NCBI GenBank assembly: GCA_956465555.1
Contig: OY101116.1
Coordinates: 1,860,001 to 1,924,000 of the forward strand
Reading direction: 5' to 3'
DNA from: Nitzschia sp. pyKryTriq1
Lineage: Eukaryota; Bacillariophyta; Bacillariophyceae; Bacillariales; Bacillariaceae
Length of the DNA: 64,000 bases
Below, piece by piece: positions 7,176 to 42,074 of this stretch. Each line of letters begins with the position of its first letter. Position 1 is the stretch's first letter. Made by a program: the position numbers and the translations under genes. The notes beneath the pieces are model-generated. The model was not told the origin of the DNA and ran no database searches. It worked only from the letters and a program-made list of their open reading frames with translations.

Positions 7176-7719
7176 ACTATTAGTATAGAGCGCACTTTCA
7201 AGCTTTAGGTTGTTGTGATTGTTCGCCAAGAAAAGAATCGGTACGACTTCTACAGGTAGCCATACTCTTTCAATTGCGACTCCTCTCTAGAGGGATAGAA
7301 GTGATGCCTGCTGAACTTAAACCAGCTAGCTCAGTCTCCAGGTAGAAAAGGAAAGTCGTCGGATTGATGATGATGATGATGATGATGCTAAGAAGACAGA
7401 AGACATATGAATATGATGATTATACAACGTCTGGCCGTCTGTTGTTGGTGTTGTTGCTCGCAATGAGACACTGTTCGCAAAGCACAGCTCCAGTACAGGC
7501 GTAAAAGTATTCATACCGGTACTGTATGTACGAGCGCCGAGTAGCAAGCTCATAACCCACAACTGCCGAAACATCGCGCAAACACGCACCAAAAACGAAA
7601 AACCCAAACGCCGGATCTGTCAAAAAATCCATCACCCAACACCCAACTTGAAACTGATATCTCTGTTCAAAGAAAAGAAGTATTAGCGCAATCGTCTCCT
7701 TGGAACTTCGTTGCCTGTC
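7176..7719. other. Intergenic
   Basis: Contains an ATG/GAT microsatellite at 7363-7388 and one short GTAC palindrome group (7512-7531) about 190 nt before the next start codon. No gene is seen. Confidence 0.55.
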
Positions 7720-9081
7720 ATGATATGGCAGTTGGTCCTGAATTGGGTCGCTCTCGTGTTATTGATTGACAGATATGCAGAAGGACTCAGCTCCAGCAGC
7801 AACACGCAAAAATTGACCGCATTGCAGACAAAAATTGCCAACAGCATCGCCAAGGAGGAGCGACGGGCACGGGAGCGGGAGCGGCAGGACTCGCCAAGAA
7901 CTGTGTGTGATGGATGTTATCGACCACCAGTACTATGCCTGTGTAAGGCACTTCCTGACGAGAAATTCCAGACCAACACAACAATTTTGATACTACAGCA
8001 TCCCAATGAATCTCGAAAGAAGACATTTTCGACGGTTCCACTCATTCCATTGGTATTGGAAAACGTTCACGTCAAAGTTGGCTATAGATTTGACATTCGG
8101 GATCTTCCGATAGTAGAGGACTATTTGCATCTCGGGAAGCGTCCCTTGTTACTTTTCCCAAGTGACCATGCCGTTTCTCTGGACAATCTCCACCCATCTG
8201 CTACAGACCTGACGACGAGGGAACTTGCCGACACTCCGACAACCGAAGAGACCACTACCACCAGTGAGAACTTGCTGATTGTACTGGATGGTACTTGGGC
8301 TGAGGCCAAGCGAATGGCGTTGCAGTCTCCGGAATTGGTGGATTCGTTATTGCACGTGACATTTTCGTCTGAGGAACCTTCCCGGTACGACGCCGTTCGG
8401 AAAGAACCAGAGGCACACTGCTATTCGACATTAGAGGCTTGTGCTCAAGCCCTCGTTCTATTGGAGAAACGGTTCGAAGAATCTGAATCCCTTACAAATG
8501 TTCTTGATTTGATGGTTAACACCAAACTGGACATGGATGCGAGCAGAAATGAGGACCCGAGACAAAAAGGAAGAAAACGTATTTCTCGAACAAGACAACG
8601 TGAACGCGTAGAAAGGGCTCTATTGAATAAGCCAAAACCTCGGCTAATCGACGAAAGCGGAGCTGTACTACGCCCATTGACAGTGAAAGACGCAGAAACC
8701 GTGAACAAGAACTGGTACCACCCCTCTCGCAAAAGCATAGCGACAATAGAAAAACGCTTGGATAATGGTTTGGGGTGTTTTGGTATTGAACACAATGGAG
8801 AGCTACGTGCCCATATTGTTCGATGTGAGGATGGTTGTCTTGGAATGCTCCATGTTGACGAGGAAGTACGTCGGAGGGGTTATGGGAAGGCACTCCTTCA
8901 AGAGGCGGCTGCTGCCCTGGATAGGGCCGGTCTTCCACAGATGGCTCTAATCAAAAACGGAAACACTGCCGCGGAATCCTTGTTTCACAGTACTGGGTGG
9001 ACTGTGATAGGCGACAATTTGATAAAACACGAGGGGCGTCCAAGGCGGCGATGGGTTCCAGGAGCCAGCACTGAACAATAA
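7720..9081 (+). CDS. DTW-domain tRNA acp3U transferase fused to a GNAT acetyltransferase
   Basis: 453 aa from ATG 7720, single exon. Residues 1-22 are hydrophobic (signal anchor or organelle presequence). The DTW domain covers about 60-265: a Cys cluster C-x2-C...C-x-C (CDGCYRPPVLCLC, about 64-76), LQHPNESRKKTFST, and the signature DGTW with Asp near residue 190. DTW proteins (bacterial TapT, human DTWD1/2) transfer the 3-amino-3-carboxypropyl group of SAM to uridine in tRNA. After a basic linker (about 280-305) a GNAT domain runs to about 430, with acetyl-CoA motif A EEVRRRGYGKALLQ near 380 and a typical FHSTGW end motif. The C-terminus is basic (GRPRRRW). Both domains look intact. In E. coli tapT (yfiP) neighbours yfiQ, which also carries a GNAT domain, so a functional pairing is conceivable. 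Confidence 0.85.
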   Translation: MIWQLVLNWVALVLLIDRYAEGLSSSSNTQKLTALQTKIANSIAKEERRARERERQDSPRTVCDGCYRPPVLCLCKALPDEKFQTNTTILILQHPNESRKKTFSTVPLIPLVLENVHVKVGYRFDIRDLPIVEDYLHLGKRPLLLFPSDHAVSLDNLHPSATDLTTRELADTPTTEETTTTSENLLIVLDGTWAEAKRMALQSPELVDSLLHVTFSSEEPSRYDAVRKEPEAHCYSTLEACAQALVLLEKRFEESESLTNVLDLMVNTKLDMDASRNEDPRQKGRKRISRTRQRERVERALLNKPKPRLIDESGAVLRPLTVKDAETVNKNWYHPSRKSIATIEKRLDNGLGCFGIEHNGELRAHIVRCEDGCLGMLHVDEEVRRRGYGKALLQEAAAALDRAGLPQMALIKNGNTAAESLFHSTGWTVIGDNLIKHEGRPRRRWVPGASTEQ

Positions 9082-22305: not shown

Positions 22306-22614
22306 GAAATTGAGGGCTCTTTGTCCACTCAAAATTCATATGATACAAGTAATAGTCGTATACACCATACAGACAGTACCTCTCTACTTCGTAGCTATAG
22401 TAGAAGGTGGTTGGTGCCATGCATCAGAATAGATTGGATAGTATTGTGCGGATGTCGATATTTACTGCTGTACGAATAATGAGTACACGCGAGCATCCGT
22501 CGCTTCAAGATGATTCCACGTGTCGGTCGCAGGGGCCATGGGATCTTCATTCCATTCTAAGTAGTCGAATAGTCTGTTGATTACCGTGCCCCCGCGTTTA
22601 CATACCGGTACCGT
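22306..22614. other. Intergenic
   Basis: Short AT-rich stretch between VPS13 and the deaminase gene. A GTAC palindrome group at 22601-22630 overlaps the first possible start codon of the next gene, which argues that the true start lies further downstream. Confidence 0.5.
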
Positions 22615-25600
22615 ATGTACTGTACGTACAGATACTGGGATGATATGAGATTCATTCGTTTCGCCAAAAACCTCAACACGATCGACGATGATGATGAACG
22701 AAGAATGACGATGAGACATGAGACAATGGCACGACAGAGAGCTTTGGTAGATGATGAACTTCACTGCTGCACCTCATGTCTTTTTGATGCCCCTCATGTC
22801 TTTTTGAATCAACAAGCGGTCAAAGTCTCAATGCTGCCCATCTCTTCCAAAGCAGCAAACCCGTCGGGCTTGTTAGGTCCTAAAATCGGTCTCCTCGGCA
22901 GCATCGCGACTGGTTGTCTTTCCCTCCTCGGGTTGGCGTGTATTTCATCGATATCAACCAGGAATGAGGAGGAGCCAAGAGTGGGGGCTTCCTCCTCTGT
23001 TACCGGTACAAGTACTTCAGCAATTTCACGGCCGACACTACTTTCAAAATTTCCGTTTTCGGACTTCGATTGGACTGTTTGGATTGGATCCGCCTGGATC
23101 CTACTGAGGCAGCAGCATCAACCAGAGCGGATACGCGCGTCAAGCGACAGGTCTCCCAGCAGCACCAACGATGTCTGGCAACTTCTTTCCGATTTCGCCT
23201 TCGTTGGTCTCTTGCTCTTGCTCAGGAAACCACCTACCGGTGGCGGTGGGAATAATGGCACTGGAAGGAGCGAAGAAACCTCTGACGACACAAAGGAGAG
23301 AAGGACGCAACATTTTCTTCAGCAAATAGAGTCCAATCTTGGATTGACACCCAAAATCCATAATCGTTCAGGTGATCCCGAGCTTCCCCTTTCACTTCCA
23401 CTTCCGAGGGTATTGCCACTAGAAGCTGGTGGCTCTACTCTTTCCTCGTTTCCTTCGTCGGCCTCTCTGCAACACCAGCAGCAGCAGCCCACGCAGGCAC
23501 CGCCACCAGTGCACCAGCGCTATCTTGAGCTCATGGTGCACAATGTTTCTCACACCGACCTGGTCTTGAGTTTGGATGCTCCTCCCGCACCCGAAAACTT
23601 GACTTGCAACCAACAACCAGTGATGAGCAACTCCAATCTCCCCTCCGACGACACTACGTATTGTCTCTGCCGGCCACGATTTTCGGCGTTTGATTCTTAC
23701 TCAAGACGCGTTCTTCAAACACTGGCTGCTGAAGATAAAGAAAATTTATCATCACAGTTGATTTCTTTTCCTCGATACGAGCGATCGGATGTCAACAATC
23801 GGAAGATCCAACTATCCACTGACGAACAACTGGAGAAAAACCAATTGCCCATCGGCTTCAACTTAGAAGGTCGTGGTGTTTTCCAAAGCGACCCCCCTGC
23901 CAACTCACTCCTCTCCGTCCTGGCAGAAGAAAAAAGCGACTTGCGCCTCCGAGGTAGAGATGCTGCGCGTCTAGATCATCTCGCCGTACCAACCAAACTG
24001 AACGCGGTCTTTTTCCCCCTCTTGGCTATGCTTTTGCCCCAATGGCAAGCCAGATTGGAAGAGAAGTATGGGAGTATCATGGCAAATATCAGCAATAATG
24101 AAGATCGTTCTAATCCTACAACCGGGTCCAACGCACAGAGCTCCAGGACGTGTAAAAAGGTTGTCATTTTGGTCAGTGGCGTGGGGTCGCCAAGAAATTG
24201 GACGCATAGTATGGATGGTAATTCGACGGAGCAGTGCGCAAAGCTGATGGAACGTTTCATTCGCACACTATATCCAGATTGGGTGGTTGTTCAAGTACAC
24301 TCGAACACGAACATCTTTCGGTATGACGAAAACATTTCTTTCGTCCAAGACGAACTCTTGCCATGTATCCAGAGCTGGCGAGACGCACATGCCACGGGAC
24401 TTGCCTATCCGGACGAAATCTTGTCATCGAGCCATCATCACCAAAACAGGAACATTGGTCAAAACCGAGTCGATCACCTGGCATTCGATCCCGACTGGCA
24501 CAAGACGATGAGCGTCACCTTGAGTTTTGCGGATGGTTCTCCTGCACGCAATCACGCAATCCAAGCAGCCCTTCGACCATACAAGCCGACCTACTTCCAT
24601 TGTTGGCAACTCAAGACCTTTTGGCACGAATCTAAAATTGTTGATTCGGATATTGAAGTTCATTCTTTCGAAGAAATGGAAACTTTACCTCCTATTGATT
24701 TGACAACTTCCATGAGCAACCGACGATTCCAACAGCAACAACCAATGGCTCTTCAAGTCATCGAAGAAATGAAAGCTTTTAAAGTGGAGATGGAGACTAT
24801 ATTGAGACAGGGAGACGAAGCACATGATATTCGAAAATTCTGGCTTCGAAAAACGCGAAAGCCTGTTCTGGCGGTCTTAGCTGTACAAATGACAAAGGAC
24901 GGGCCAGTAAAACTGTACAGAGGAACCAACATGGAAGGTGAGTTTCGCATGAGTTGGTCAGCGTCATTTGGTGATGATTCATCTTCTTAGACATCACCTG
25001 ACCGCTTCGTTCTTTAGTTTCAATGCCCACTGGTTCACTCTGCGCTGAAAGAAACGTCATTGGAACTGCGCTAGCGGCAAATCCGACCCTGAAACGCCAC
25101 CACCTGAAAATCATAGCTGTTTTGAGCGTACCACCTACCAATCCAGACAACATTTCTCGTACCACAAGTACAGCCAGTCTGATATCCATGTCAGGCGGGA
25201 GGGTCAACAGCCGTAGCAACAGTGTGGACATTTCAGACCCACCAGGTGTTAATCCCATGAGCCATCCTCGGCCTTCCGGTCGATCCAATTCAGCTGAATG
25301 GCTCTTGCAGGATGTGGCACCGCCCTTAGGACCCACCATTTCCAGTGTGATAGCAACGGAGGGTCAGGACGAACCCGCGGCTACGGCATTCGAAGACGCT
25401 TCTTCCATCAAGAATAACGCCACCAGCGTCACAGTTTCTCCAAGTACGACACCTGCACGTCACATTTCCCTCTATCAACACAGCGCCACCTCCCACGGCA
25501 ACATAGCCAAGGGCAATGGGACCGATACTAAAGGAAGAGGGAACAGCCATAGCCAACCGAACAAGAGAAGAACAGTCGTCCTCGTACAGTCCCCAGAGGA

Positions 25601-25736
25601 TTTGAATCCATTGCGCCCGTGTGGAGCATGCAATGAATGGTTGAAGAAAATCGCTGAAACCAACCCGTACTTTCAGATTTTGACCTTTACCGATAAAGAA
25701 TGCAATGGGGTCTATTGTACTCCATGCGCAGAGTAA
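22615..25736 (+). CDS. Large protein with C-terminal CDA-type cytidine deaminase domain
   Basis: Two exons, 22615-24937 and 25018-25736, joined in phase 1 over an 80-nt GTGAGT...TTTAG intron, give up to 1013 aa. The splice rebuilds a deaminase active site: RGTNMEVSMPTGSLCAERNV, with the zinc Cys and catalytic Glu of C-A-E, followed by LRPCGACNEW, the PCxxC zinc motif. The two motifs lie about 190 residues apart, against roughly 30-40 in standard CDA enzymes, because a Ser/Thr/Gly-rich insert intervenes. The N-terminus has a hydrophobic segment (about residues 83-107, IGLLGSIATGCLSLLGLACI). A well-ordered block at about 515-690 (KVVILVSGVGSPRNW...) is unfamiliar. The start is uncertain: ATG 22615, later ATGs, or 22831 just before the hydrophobic stretch. 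Substrate unknown. Confidence 0.72.
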
Positions 25737-36891: not shown

Positions 36892-38091
36892 TTATGCCTT
36901 GAGCTTCAAAACGTTTCCGTTTTCGTCAATAGGCTTGCCATCATAGCGTGTTTTGGCAAATGCGGCCTTTGCTCGGAGGCTCTCATCTTCAGCATGATAG
37001 ATGGTTCGGATGAGAGTGGAGCTGCACGCCTCGGTCCTTGGAACAAAATATACTGGCATGACACTCTCTACCCATTCACGGCCTGGGAAGTTCAACATGT
37101 CATCACCTCGTGCGTAGCAGCATGAGCCGGTAGCAATGTCTTGCTCAGACACCACGCTCTTGATGTATAGAAGAGGGTCAGTGGACGGAATGACGAAGAG
37201 TTGATCCACGAAAGGTTTGACATTCGTCATGCGTGTTTCGAGATTGTCAATGGTGTACTTGTTTTTGAGTTTGAAGTAGCTTTCGTCATCATGGATACCC
37301 GCCACGATGAAATAGCCAAACTCTCGGAGGGAGTGCAGGACGTTTTGGTGGCCTCGGTGGAACAAGTCAAAACAACCGATGGTGTAGACCTTGCGGTTTT
37401 CCCATCCCTCGGGAAGACGGGGCTTGAGAGAGTTCACCTCAACGATGAGTTCATCAACTTCGTCTTTCAACGATTGTAGCTTTTCGCCTTTGAGGTACAA
37501 GTTCCTTTCCATAATTTTCTGCAGACGCTCTCCACGAATAGAAGATCCGCTATGCTTGTCAAATTTCTTGAGGATTTTAGAAAATGCCGTCTTGTTCAGC
37601 TCGATGAACTCAAGAAGAAGTTGCAATTCGCGTTGGAAGGTCACAAGGGACTTCTTGGCATAGACAAAGTCTTGGAAATGCTTCGATTTTCCCATTTTAC
37701 GGTATTCATCCTTCAGCCATTCATACTCTCCGTCGTTGCCCTTGAGCGAAAGTTTCTCCAGACTGATTTTAAAATCAGCAATACCAGTGGGACTGGAGTT
37801 GGTCAAGGAGGACTCCGAGTTGGAGCTCATGCTAGAGGGAGATCCTGGTTCCGAGGCAGAATCGCGCAAGTCTTCAACCCGCTTCTCCAGGGTCGCCATG
37901 TAGTTGATGGCCCAATTTTCCTTATCGGCATAGAACTTGGCCAACTTGGTTTCGGATTGATCAAGAACGGCGAAAAATTCATCATCTTTCGAGTCTTCTG
38001 ACTTGATACATTTTTTGAGAGGCTTGTAGTCCACAGCGTAAAAGCGCCATTCTTTGAGGATGCGATCAGCCAGAGTCTTTCCAAATTTCAT
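36892..38091 (-). CDS. SPX domain - cytidylyltransferase fusion
   Basis: 399 aa from ATG 38091, chosen because SPX domains begin MKFGK; upstream in-frame sequence is leader. Residues 1-190 are an SPX domain: MKFGKTLADRILKEWRFYAV, DYKPLKKCIK with the Lys/Tyr pocket for inositol pyrophosphates, and the closing helix with NKTAFSKILKKFDKHSG. Residues about 245-380 are a nucleotidyltransferase of the glycerol-3-phosphate/choline/ethanolamine cytidylyltransferase type: YTIGCFDLFHRGHQN with the HxGH signature, a conserved acidic loop, and RTEACSSTLIR corresponding to the RTxGxSTT motif. The combination suggests a CDP-alcohol-forming step in phospholipid or cell-surface synthesis that responds to phosphate status through inositol pyrophosphate binding. 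No transmembrane segment is seen. Single exon. Confidence 0.86.
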   Translation of the reverse strand: MKFGKTLADRILKEWRFYAVDYKPLKKCIKSEDSKDDEFFAVLDQSETKLAKFYADKENWAINYMATLEKRVEDLRDSASEPGSPSSMSSNSESSLTNSSPTGIADFKISLEKLSLKGNDGEYEWLKDEYRKMGKSKHFQDFVYAKKSLVTFQRELQLLLEFIELNKTAFSKILKKFDKHSGSSIRGERLQKIMERNLYLKGEKLQSLKDEVDELIVEVNSLKPRLPEGWENRKVYTIGCFDLFHRGHQNVLHSLREFGYFIVAGIHDDESYFKLKNKYTIDNLETRMTNVKPFVDQLFVIPSTDPLLYIKSVVSEQDIATGSCCYARGDDMLNFPGREWVESVMPVYFVPRTEACSSTLIRTIYHAEDESLRAKAAFAKTRYDGKPIDENGNVLKLKA

Positions 38092-39520: not shown

Positions 39521-39834
39521 AGTCATAGTCTTTTCTTCTTCGACGACGGCCGCCAAATTCTTCAAGATCTGGATCTAAAAAGTAAAAAGCATCGACCTCG
39601 AACCTCGACATTCGACATCATTCTCGATCCTGGCGGGAGCGATCTTTCTGAAGTCCACGCTTCTACCGTTCTACCTCTGCCACCTGCCACCATATGGAGC
39701 CTGGAGCCTTCCAGCTTTTATCTTTGGACAAGTGCTCGAAAAAAGAGCCCTACTACTACAGTATAGTACCAACGTAGGAGAAGTTTGCTGTGCTGCTTTC
39801 ATAGTCGAATCCATCAGGAGGAGCAGGCAGAAGA
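39521..39834. other. Intergenic
   Basis: Short stretch between two plus-strand genes. I see no motif beyond a GTAGTACTAC-like patch near 39748-39775 and nothing coding. Confidence 0.5.
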
Positions 39835-42074
39835 ATGACGACAAAGAAAGTGACGGTGATTCACTGTTGGTCAGCACCCCGCTCTCGATCCACAGCGTTG
39901 TTGTACTCATTTGAAGCTCGCGGCGAGGACTGTTGTGCTGCCATCGATGAGCCCCTCTACCGTGAGTGGCTCATTGCCAAGGGTGACACTGTGGCCCGTC
40001 CTTATCTCAAGGAAATGGTGGAAGGTATCCCGCCTCCGGACGAGCAAAGCAGCAGCAGCAGCAGCGCCTCGCCCGAGAAAGTCCGCCAAGTATGGCAACG
40101 CGAACTCTTGTCCTTGAAGGAACGAATCACGGCGGCCGCGGAAAAGCTCAACAGTGACGACCATGGAGTGATCTTTTGCAAGCACATGGCGAAGCATTCC
40201 TTTTTGTATGATTTTGATGAGGAGTTCACCATGGAAGGAACACAATTAATTCACCGCCACTTGCTTCTGATCCGAGATCCGGTAGATGTGCTGTCGTCAT
40301 GGGGTGTCTCGTCGGACGTGCACGGAAATAATCCCACCTCGGATGAAGTTGGCATTGTGCCTCTCTTGTCCATTTATGCAAAGCTAGAAAGTCGGGTGAA
40401 GGACGAACAAAGTCATCATCCTGCTGTCATTCTAGAATCGGATGATCTGGTGGCCGACCCTGAAGGGACTCTCGCTGGTATTTGTGCAGGCCTGGGAATT
40501 CCATACAAGGAATCTATGATGACTTGGAAAAGCGGACCACATGAATGCGACGGACCATGGGCGAAGGTATGCAGAACTTGTCTTGTCTAGTTTTCGGCAT
40601 GCGTGTACATGTTTTTCAATTATTTTGGGGGGCCAGTCTGACTGACACAACAATATTCTTGTTTGCTAATAATAGTGGTGGTATCACAATGTCTGGAAAT
40701 CGGATGGGTGGCATCGAACAACAACTCAAAAAGAGTACTACCCTGAAACAAAAAAATATCGCACTTTGGATCCGGTGCTGATGCATGCTTTGAAAGCCTC
40801 TTTTCCTGCGTATGAATTTTTACGACGGTTGACCATTTCCTACAGCCAACGTGGTCCTCCTCCAAATGAGATATACGAAGACCCACGAAATGAACATCTT
40901 CTGGTGTGGATCGGTGCACCAAATCGGGGACGTCTGATTCCAAGAGATCTGGCAGGAGTTAGTCCCTGGGACTCGTCCGTACAAGGTGGAGATGCTTGCT
41001 GGGAAGGGATTCGAGTGTACAGAGGCAAGATTTTGTCGTTAGAGAAGCATTTGGGACGTCTTTTCCGCTCGGCCAAAGCGTTGGGTTTCAAGAATGTTCA
41101 TTCCAAAGAGGAAATCATTGAGGCTATTTTCAAGACTTTGGCCGCGAATGGAATGCGAGACAATGCTCATATGCGTCTTACACTGACTCGTGGCGAGAAG
41201 TGTACGTCCAGCATGAATCCCAATTTCAATGTGTACGGTACTACACTCATTATTCTGGCAGAATGGAAACCGACAGAAGTAAGTACCAGTACAGTATTCC
41301 TTGAAATGTCTACAGGTAATGAAGGGATCTTTTGTCTTTACTCAATGTTTTCTTTCTATTTAGGGTGCTACCACGTACGACAATACGAAAGGAATCACCC
41401 TCATCACGGCTAGCCAGCGACGGAACCCTCCAGGAACCTGCGATTCCAAAATCGTAAGTGTTACAACCAGCTTTGCAACTCGCTTATCATTACTTTCATT
41501 CTAACGCCCCTCTGTGAAATCTCTGTCTATGTCTCAGCATCACAATAACCTGGTAAGTAACAGGAAGACTGCTATGACTGGAATCCGGTCAGTTTTTTTC
41601 TTTTGACTGACCCCCCGGGCTTTACTTCCGAACCCTTCTTAGATTAACAATATTCTACCGAAAATCCAAGCTAACCTCGCCGGTGCGGCTGACGCTATCA
41701 TGCTGGACATTGATGGATATGTGAGCGAGACCAATGCAACAAACATTTTCATGGTGGACGATGAAGGTTTACTTCTCACTCCCACCGCTGATCATTGCCT
41801 TCCTGGTGTAACGCGGGGAACAGTAATCAAACTCGCCAAGGAGCTTGACATTCCTTGTGAAGTGCGGCGCGTGTCTCTAGCCGAATTCCATGCTGCTGAA
41901 GAAGTGTTTACAACCGGTACAATGGGAGAATTGACACCCGTCACGATGATCGATGGGCGTGTCATTGGCTCGGGCGCTCTAGGGCCTATCACGAAACGCC
42001 TACAAGATGCGTACAAGACGCTACCTGAACGACCTGGTTGGGCCACAGAAATCCCACCCTTTGCTACGTCGTAG
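39835..42074 (+). CDS. P-loop (sulfotransferase-like) + class IV aminotransferase fusion
   Basis: Five exons, 39835-40566, 40676-41278, 41364-41453, 41538-41552 (15 nt) and 41643-42074, all phase 0, give 623 aa. Residues 1-245 resemble P-loop sulfotransferases: HCWSAPRSRSTALLYSFEAR holds the nucleotide-binding loop, followed by IDEPLY and a LLIRDPVDVLSSW segment. Residues about 290-620 are a PLP-dependent class IV (BCAT/D-amino-acid) aminotransferase: DSSVQGGDACWEGIRVYRGK, MRLTLTRGEKC, CDSKIHHNNL with the presumed PLP lysine, and SETNATNIFMV. The same architecture exists in land-plant branched-chain aminotransferase-like proteins (Arabidopsis At3g05190/At5g27410), which it follows closely from memory. 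The microexon encodes HHNNL immediately after the lysine. Substrate unknown. Confidence 0.88.

Follow-up and report, generated by a model that had tools for sequence, protein, structure and literature searches.

A single open reading frame in the diatom Nitzschia sp. pyKryTriq1 joins an SPX domain to a cytidylyltransferase-like domain

A minus-strand open reading frame of Nitzschia sp. pyKryTriq1 encodes an N-terminal SPX domain followed, after a short linker, by a domain of the cytidylyltransferase (CT) fold. The encoded protein, referred to here as SPX-CT, brings two known domains together in an unusual pairing that is new as far as the open-access papers covered here go, and we regard it as a variant of the SPX-regulated enzyme and not as a system of a novel type. 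The gene lies at positions 36892..38091 of the stretch of contig OY101116.1 that was analyzed, a region of 64,000 nucleotides that we call the window. A sequence-only reading of this DNA had proposed a one-frame fusion at these positions without giving a strand; the fusion is borne out, and its strand can now be given as minus. Computational analysis of this frame located both domains, the residues corresponding to known SPX ligands, and the catalytic motif of the CT half.

RESULTS

The SPX-CT coding sequence (36892..38091, minus strand) specifies 399 amino acids plus a stop in a single open frame, with the start ATG at 38091-38089 and the stop TAA at 36894-36892. The frame remains open upstream to 38247 and contains one extra in-frame Met, 32 codons 5' of the MKFGK start, and the latter was chosen as the start because the SPX chains of the PDB begin there. 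Five other ORFs of the window served to train a codon-usage score, which was applied in forty-codon blocks with all six frames compared. The score of the SPX-CT frame was positive in each of the 10 blocks, even if only 0.1 in block 321-360, and was the highest of the six frames in 9 of them, the exception being block 241-280, in which an antisense frame scored 16.8 versus 5.5 for the SPX-CT frame. The two domains lie approximately 40 codons apart, and this linker (residues 191-231; 37399..37521, minus strand) is mostly predicted helix, to residue 221 in the structure model, which makes a separate promoter or gene for the CT half unlikely. That the frame is open and the linker short suggests that SPX-CT is produced from one mRNA. 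All of the motifs that the sequence-only reading had quoted are present: MKFGK at residues 1-5, KKFDKHSG at 175-182, FHRGHQN at 244-250, and RTEACSST at 352-359. An Rfam scan of the whole window returned zero matches at gathering scores. A scan for the P1BS-type motif GNATATNC found no site at the SPX-CT gene, with 11 sites in the window versus 9.2 expected; the absence of such a site provides no support for PSR1-type control and is neutral on post-translational control.

The window also encodes VPS13, KRI1, and PPR proteins, genes that by themselves make a eukaryotic source very probable. On the plus strand, a Sulfotransfer_5 ORF (39805-40590) precedes one for a class IV aminotransferase (40676-41413) and then an ORF at 41643-42074 that by eye resembles the C-terminal part of a class IV aminotransferase, and the ORFs across 39805-42074 are possibly one intron-split fusion gene. 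Two further plus-strand ORFs were also observed: a single ORF at 7687-9081 in which a DTW domain (E 1.5e-44) is combined with an acetyltransferase domain of the GNAT type, FR47 (E 1.6e-12), and a long ORF at 22573-24990, the end of which matches a family of CDD/CDA-like deaminases, LmjF365940 (E 6.5e-10), and which is followed by a separate ORF at 25002-25736.

A single-sequence fold of SPX-CT was poor (mean pLDDT 48.3) and was replaced by an AlphaFold model built with an alignment, A1, consisting of SPX-CT and 78 virus CT domains, which were left of 130 listed virus CT stretches once redundant and low-scoring ones had been filtered out. The mean pLDDT of this model was 74.5 and its pTM 0.55, and at that pTM the interface between the SPX and CT halves is not fixed by the model. 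By ten-residue blocks, pLDDT was 86-97 for residues 231-310, 75, 51, and 75 for blocks 311-340, and 83-84 for residues 341-370. A helix at 358-380 closes the CT domain in the model, and the C-terminal tail (residues 367-399; 36895..36993, minus strand) consists of the end of this helix, to residue 380, and then mostly coil. When the PDB was searched by fold, the best 50 of the 854 matches were all of the CT type, with no SPX chain among them.

The SPX domain (residues 1-190; 37522..38091, minus strand) was identified by Pfam, by PDB SPX chains, and by the model. The profile search suggested alongside the sequence-only reading gave a significant match to PF03105 (E 9.6e-26; 92 bits versus a cut-off of 27.8), and the PDB sequence matches of this half were SPX domain-containing proteins 1 and 2, VTC4, XPR1, and PHO1-type chains. 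The AlphaFold model predicts a helical hairpin (7-18 and 22-30) and two long helices (36-79 and 137-180), with a Ser-rich loop at approximately 87-132 that has low model confidence and with a pLDDT of 46 for residues 1-10 and 62 for residues 11-20. The InsP6 ligands of rice OsSPX1 named in passages of PMC8639918 are Y25, K29, K147, and K151. In a sequence alignment with 7e40_B, a chain whose numbering is one ahead of that of the OsSPX1 protein, all four are kept in SPX-CT as Y22, K26, K172, and K176. The stretch from Y22 to K26 (38014..38028, minus strand) supplies the first half of the pocket predicted for inositol pyrophosphates, and K172 and K176 belong to KILKKFDK (residues 172-179; 37555..37578, minus strand), in which K175 and K179 are likewise lysine. 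Passages of PMC10167327 name N123 and K129 of Vtc4 and also yeast VTC Y19; the first two correspond to N166 and K172 of SPX-CT (residues 141-184 matched to 98-141 of Vtc4), and the place of Y19, by numbering from the start alone, is occupied by A19. The earlier description of a complete-looking SPX domain with a Lys-rich ligand helix agrees with the PF03105 match and with the presence, by alignment, of the four OsSPX1-type residues, and we infer from these residues that the SPX half binds inositol pyrophosphates.

The CT-like domain (residues 232-366; 36994..37398, minus strand) was identified by Pfam and by PDB sequence and fold. The corresponding profile search, of PF01467 (CTP_transf_like), was also significant (E 1.4e-10; 41.9 bits versus a cut-off of 21; residues 236-363). 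The HxGH catalytic motif is present as HRGH (residues 245-248; 37348..37359, minus strand), and H245, G247, and H248 are invariant in 79 of the 79 rows of A1, as are G239, D242, and R287, giving six invariant columns. RTEACSST (residues 352-359; 37015..37038, minus strand) aligned with RTEGISTT of Bacillus subtilis GCT (PDB 1coz) and is a variant of RTxGISTT. RTxGIS(T/S)(T/S) is the signature of CTP-using cytidylyltransferases, of which RTEACSST retains RT, S, and T and has AC in place of GI; we take its ..SST ending to resemble adenylyltransferases as well. The residues aligned with GCT also include K276, K278, R287, GDD at 329-331, and, as a whole, RTExxS(S/T)T, residues to which functional roles are ascribed in GCT. 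For GDD, which sits where model confidence drops (blocks 311-340), the phmmer alignments were preferred since MAFFT shifted this stretch in A1. Two departures from GCT were found: the conserved Arg of RYVDEV, presumably R63 in B. subtilis GCT numbering, is absent, its place being P293 by phmmer and falling by MAFFT into a gap of two residues; and in the phmmer alignment the Trp of GDDW has given way to M332. Judged by its profile and PDB matches and by the model, the CT half is a cytidylyltransferase-fold enzyme; it is plausibly active, its parts, like those of the SPX half, looking for the most part intact.

The closest PDB sequence was human PCYT2 (3elb), narrowly so: its E value of 1e-15 is summed over two CT domains, and the best single-match scores were 33.6 bits for PCYT2 versus 31.4 bits for GCT (E 7.4e-07). 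PCYT2 differs in having two tandem CT domains, each of which was matched by the single one of SPX-CT, and in lacking SPX; SPX-CT holds one PF01467 stretch and not the tandem CT pair of ethanolamine-phosphate cytidylyltransferase. By fold, the top PDB match among the best 50 of 854 was B. subtilis GCT (TagD, 1coz; E 5.5e-06, TM 0.82 on target), which has a single CT domain and an RTE..ST. signature that is aligned from end to end, followed by HldC and then mammalian CCT. TagD differs in having no sensor domain, and SPX-CT fails the NCBIfam equivalog model for GCT, TIGR01518 (25.6 versus 165.4 bits). It likewise fails TIGR02199, for heptose-1-phosphate adenylyltransferase (36.9 versus 181.5 bits, residues 231-307 only), and its match in PHROGs bears a heptose adenylyltransferase name. 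In choline-phosphate cytidylyltransferase, an amphipathic membrane-binding helix follows the catalytic domain; in the SPX-CT model, the domain closes with the helix at 358-380. In a tree, the branch of SPX-CT measured 5.26 changes per column and its placement was unsure. The CT domain is thus a very divergent, long-branch outlier, and for this reason its substrate, and also the use of CTP rather than ATP, stays putative. The label "CDP-alcohol-type" in the sequence-only reading holds as far as the cytidylyltransferase fold is concerned; as a subtype it stays provisional, given the length of the branch, the failed NCBIfam cut-offs, and the ..SST ending.

Relatives of SPX-CT were sought in viral contigs (3 pattern matches, 0 confirmed) and in prokaryote genome contigs (8 pattern matches, 0 confirmed), and tblastn against phages and plasmids gave none at E 1e-5. 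For a eukaryotic gene, the lack of a fusion relative in the viral, phage, plasmid, and prokaryote sets comes as no surprise, and it is silent on other algae. One DNA pattern for SPX motifs gave 24 loci in viral contigs, with SPX-CT matches in 0 of 1014 ORFs, another gave 0 loci in viral contigs, and a bacterial search gave 19 loci, with SPX-CT matches in 0 of 297 ORFs; 17 bacterial loci with an SPX-motif ORF look like one unrelated bacterial family and were rejected. Patterns for CT motifs gave at least 120, at least 120, 94, and 20 loci. When SPX-CT was compared by phmmer with the ORFs of the first loci, the 24 SPX-motif loci included, at least 231 domain rows were obtained, and among the matches listed no alignment begins before residue 150. 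Later new CT-motif loci gave 90 rows for 90 loci, and the last CT-motif loci together with L314 gave 19 rows (L378 gave none), the lowest alignment starts in these two sets being residues 215 and 209. A match in the viral locus L052 (residues 172-314, accuracy 0.65) reaches the last SPX helix, and that part of L052 looks by eye like another domain. No virus-borne SPX-CT fusion was seen among the matches listed. Within the best 50 of 566 BFVD matches, the Yasminevirus protein A0A5K0U9B1 ("ethanolamine-phosphate cytidylyltransferase," 420 aa) aligned over 378 columns with an rmsd of 28, and it could be a viral fusion candidate; its other half may be a further CT domain or of another kind. The CT-motif patterns aimed at viral genes of this type (94 + 20 loci) gave none with SPX. 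A separate virus-contig ORF, L317:10012-11085, has approximately 220 residues that are glycosyltransferase-like by eye and then a CT domain.

DISCUSSION

SPX domains control enzymes to which they are attached or with which they associate. VTC, compared with SPX-CT, is a membrane complex with an unrelated catalytic fold. The likeness lies in its control, since passages of PMC10167327 describe SPX gating a nucleotide-dependent polyphosphate polymerase via inositol pyrophosphates, which activate VTC. The nearest precedent for SPX-CT is Gde1 of fission yeast, in which SPX is joined to a glycerophosphodiesterase. According to passages of PMC8749416, this is an SPX domain on a phospholipid-headgroup enzyme whose SPX ligand residues matter in vivo: mutants of the inositol-pyrophosphate site phenocopy the deletion in relieving inositol-pyrophosphate toxicity, and SPX-site and catalytic mutants both provide this relief. 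The same passages report residual function in the Gde1 SPX-site mutant, a Gde1 activity that may not strictly need contact between SPX and ligand, and a Vtc4 ligand-site mutant that did not behave like the deletion. Gde1 differs from SPX-CT in that its enzyme half breaks glycerophosphodiesters, whereas that of SPX-CT is a nucleotidyltransferase.

SPX fusions with lineage-specific partners are, like SPX-CT, found in algae and basal plants, and the partners given in passages of PMC8717665 and PMC12388464 are VTC, CitMHS, Na_sulph_symp, EIN3, S6PP_C, Kelch, and DUF202. None of those named is a cytidylyltransferase, and the string "cytidyl" occurs 0 times in the main texts of these two papers. For Phaeodactylum tricornutum, passages of PMC8233357 report six SPX genes, five of them with further domains, and name Vpt1 and Vtc4; "cytidyl" is absent from the main text of that paper, and a counterpart of SPX-CT could be among the remaining P. 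tricornutum SPX proteins. The string also occurs 0 times in PMC7283521, PMC13153306, and PMC12396336, and passages of PMC12168105 mention a cytidylyltransferase only as an enzyme of the MEP pathway. The remark in the sequence-only reading that its author knew of no such enzyme is consistent with the open-access literature: among the papers listed, we found no description of an SPX-cytidylyltransferase in titles, abstract starts, or passages. As the material covered is open-access papers, databases may well already carry automatic annotations of this architecture.

The reading that we favor, to which we give about an even chance, is that SPX-CT is a CMP transferase for a small phospho-alcohol that senses phosphate through SPX and is active when phosphate is plentiful. 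The protein would be a soluble nucleotidyltransferase that uses CTP, most likely, to place CMP on a small phospho-alcohol, with phosphoethanolamine as our first guess and phosphocholine or glycerol 3-phosphate next, and the N-terminal SPX domain would serve as its built-in sensor of phosphate status. With plentiful phosphate, inositol pyrophosphates would bind Y22, K26, K172, and K176 and the neighboring lysines, and this binding would shift the SPX bundle and the helix at 185-221 against the transferase in a way that favors activity. With scarce phosphate, the ligand would be lost and the cell would cease to spend phosphate on CDP-activated headgroups. Ligand-gated activity is proposed here by analogy with VTC and Gde1; what the enzyme acts on, the sign of its control, and its function in the cell are likewise proposals, as are the phosphate-status control and the part in phospholipid remodeling put forward in the sequence-only reading.

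The direction of control could instead be reversed, with the loss of ligand in phosphate scarcity turning the enzyme on to salvage headgroups from degraded phospholipids. Such a scheme differs from the favored reading in sign alone. Loss of SPX raises phospholipid-degradation genes in P. tricornutum, according to passages of PMC8233357, and headgroups would thus need handling in scarcity; the SPX ligand activates VTC rather than inhibiting it, however, as passages of PMC10167327 describe, and we consider the reversed sign unlikely. A somewhat stronger possibility, although still a minor one, is that the CT half uses ATP or another nucleotide, in the manner of HldE/HldC, FAD synthase, and the NMN adenylyltransferases, or that it acts on a less usual compound, for example a phosphonate or a sugar phosphate. 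SPX could still exert control here, and to that extent this alternative overlaps the others. The higher score of TIGR02199 than of the GCT model, though over residues 231-307 only, the heptose adenylyltransferase name of the PHROGs match, the position of HldC as second fold match (best 50 of 854), and a motif that ends in ACSSTLIR and not GISTT all point in this direction. The top PDB matches, PCYT2 by sequence and GCT by fold (best 50 of 854), argue for a cytidylyltransferase instead, as do the RTE ahead of the motif and the GDD, both the same as in GCT. The very long branch and the loss of the RYVDEV Arg and the GDDW Trp would also fit a CT half that has become a weak or dead scaffold, in which case SPX-CT would be a regulatory SPX protein, for example a partner of a MYB-type phosphate regulator or of a canonical cytidylyltransferase. 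We find this quite improbable, as drift is unlikely to have spared HxGH, the two Lys residues, R287, and RTExxSST.

More tentative than the favored reading itself, and with a chance that we place clearly below even, is the proposal that an inositol pyrophosphate directly gates the activation of CDP-headgroups, which would make SPX-CT the member of an enzyme class not previously described. The swap of phospholipids for non-phosphorus lipids by algae under low phosphate is usually explained by transcription. If the proposal is true, a post-translational switch would couple phosphate supply to the membrane lipids of algae without transcription. With an SPX-gated transferase, the enzyme would carry its own sensor, and the outputs of SPX domains would gain the making of nucleotide-activated intermediates.
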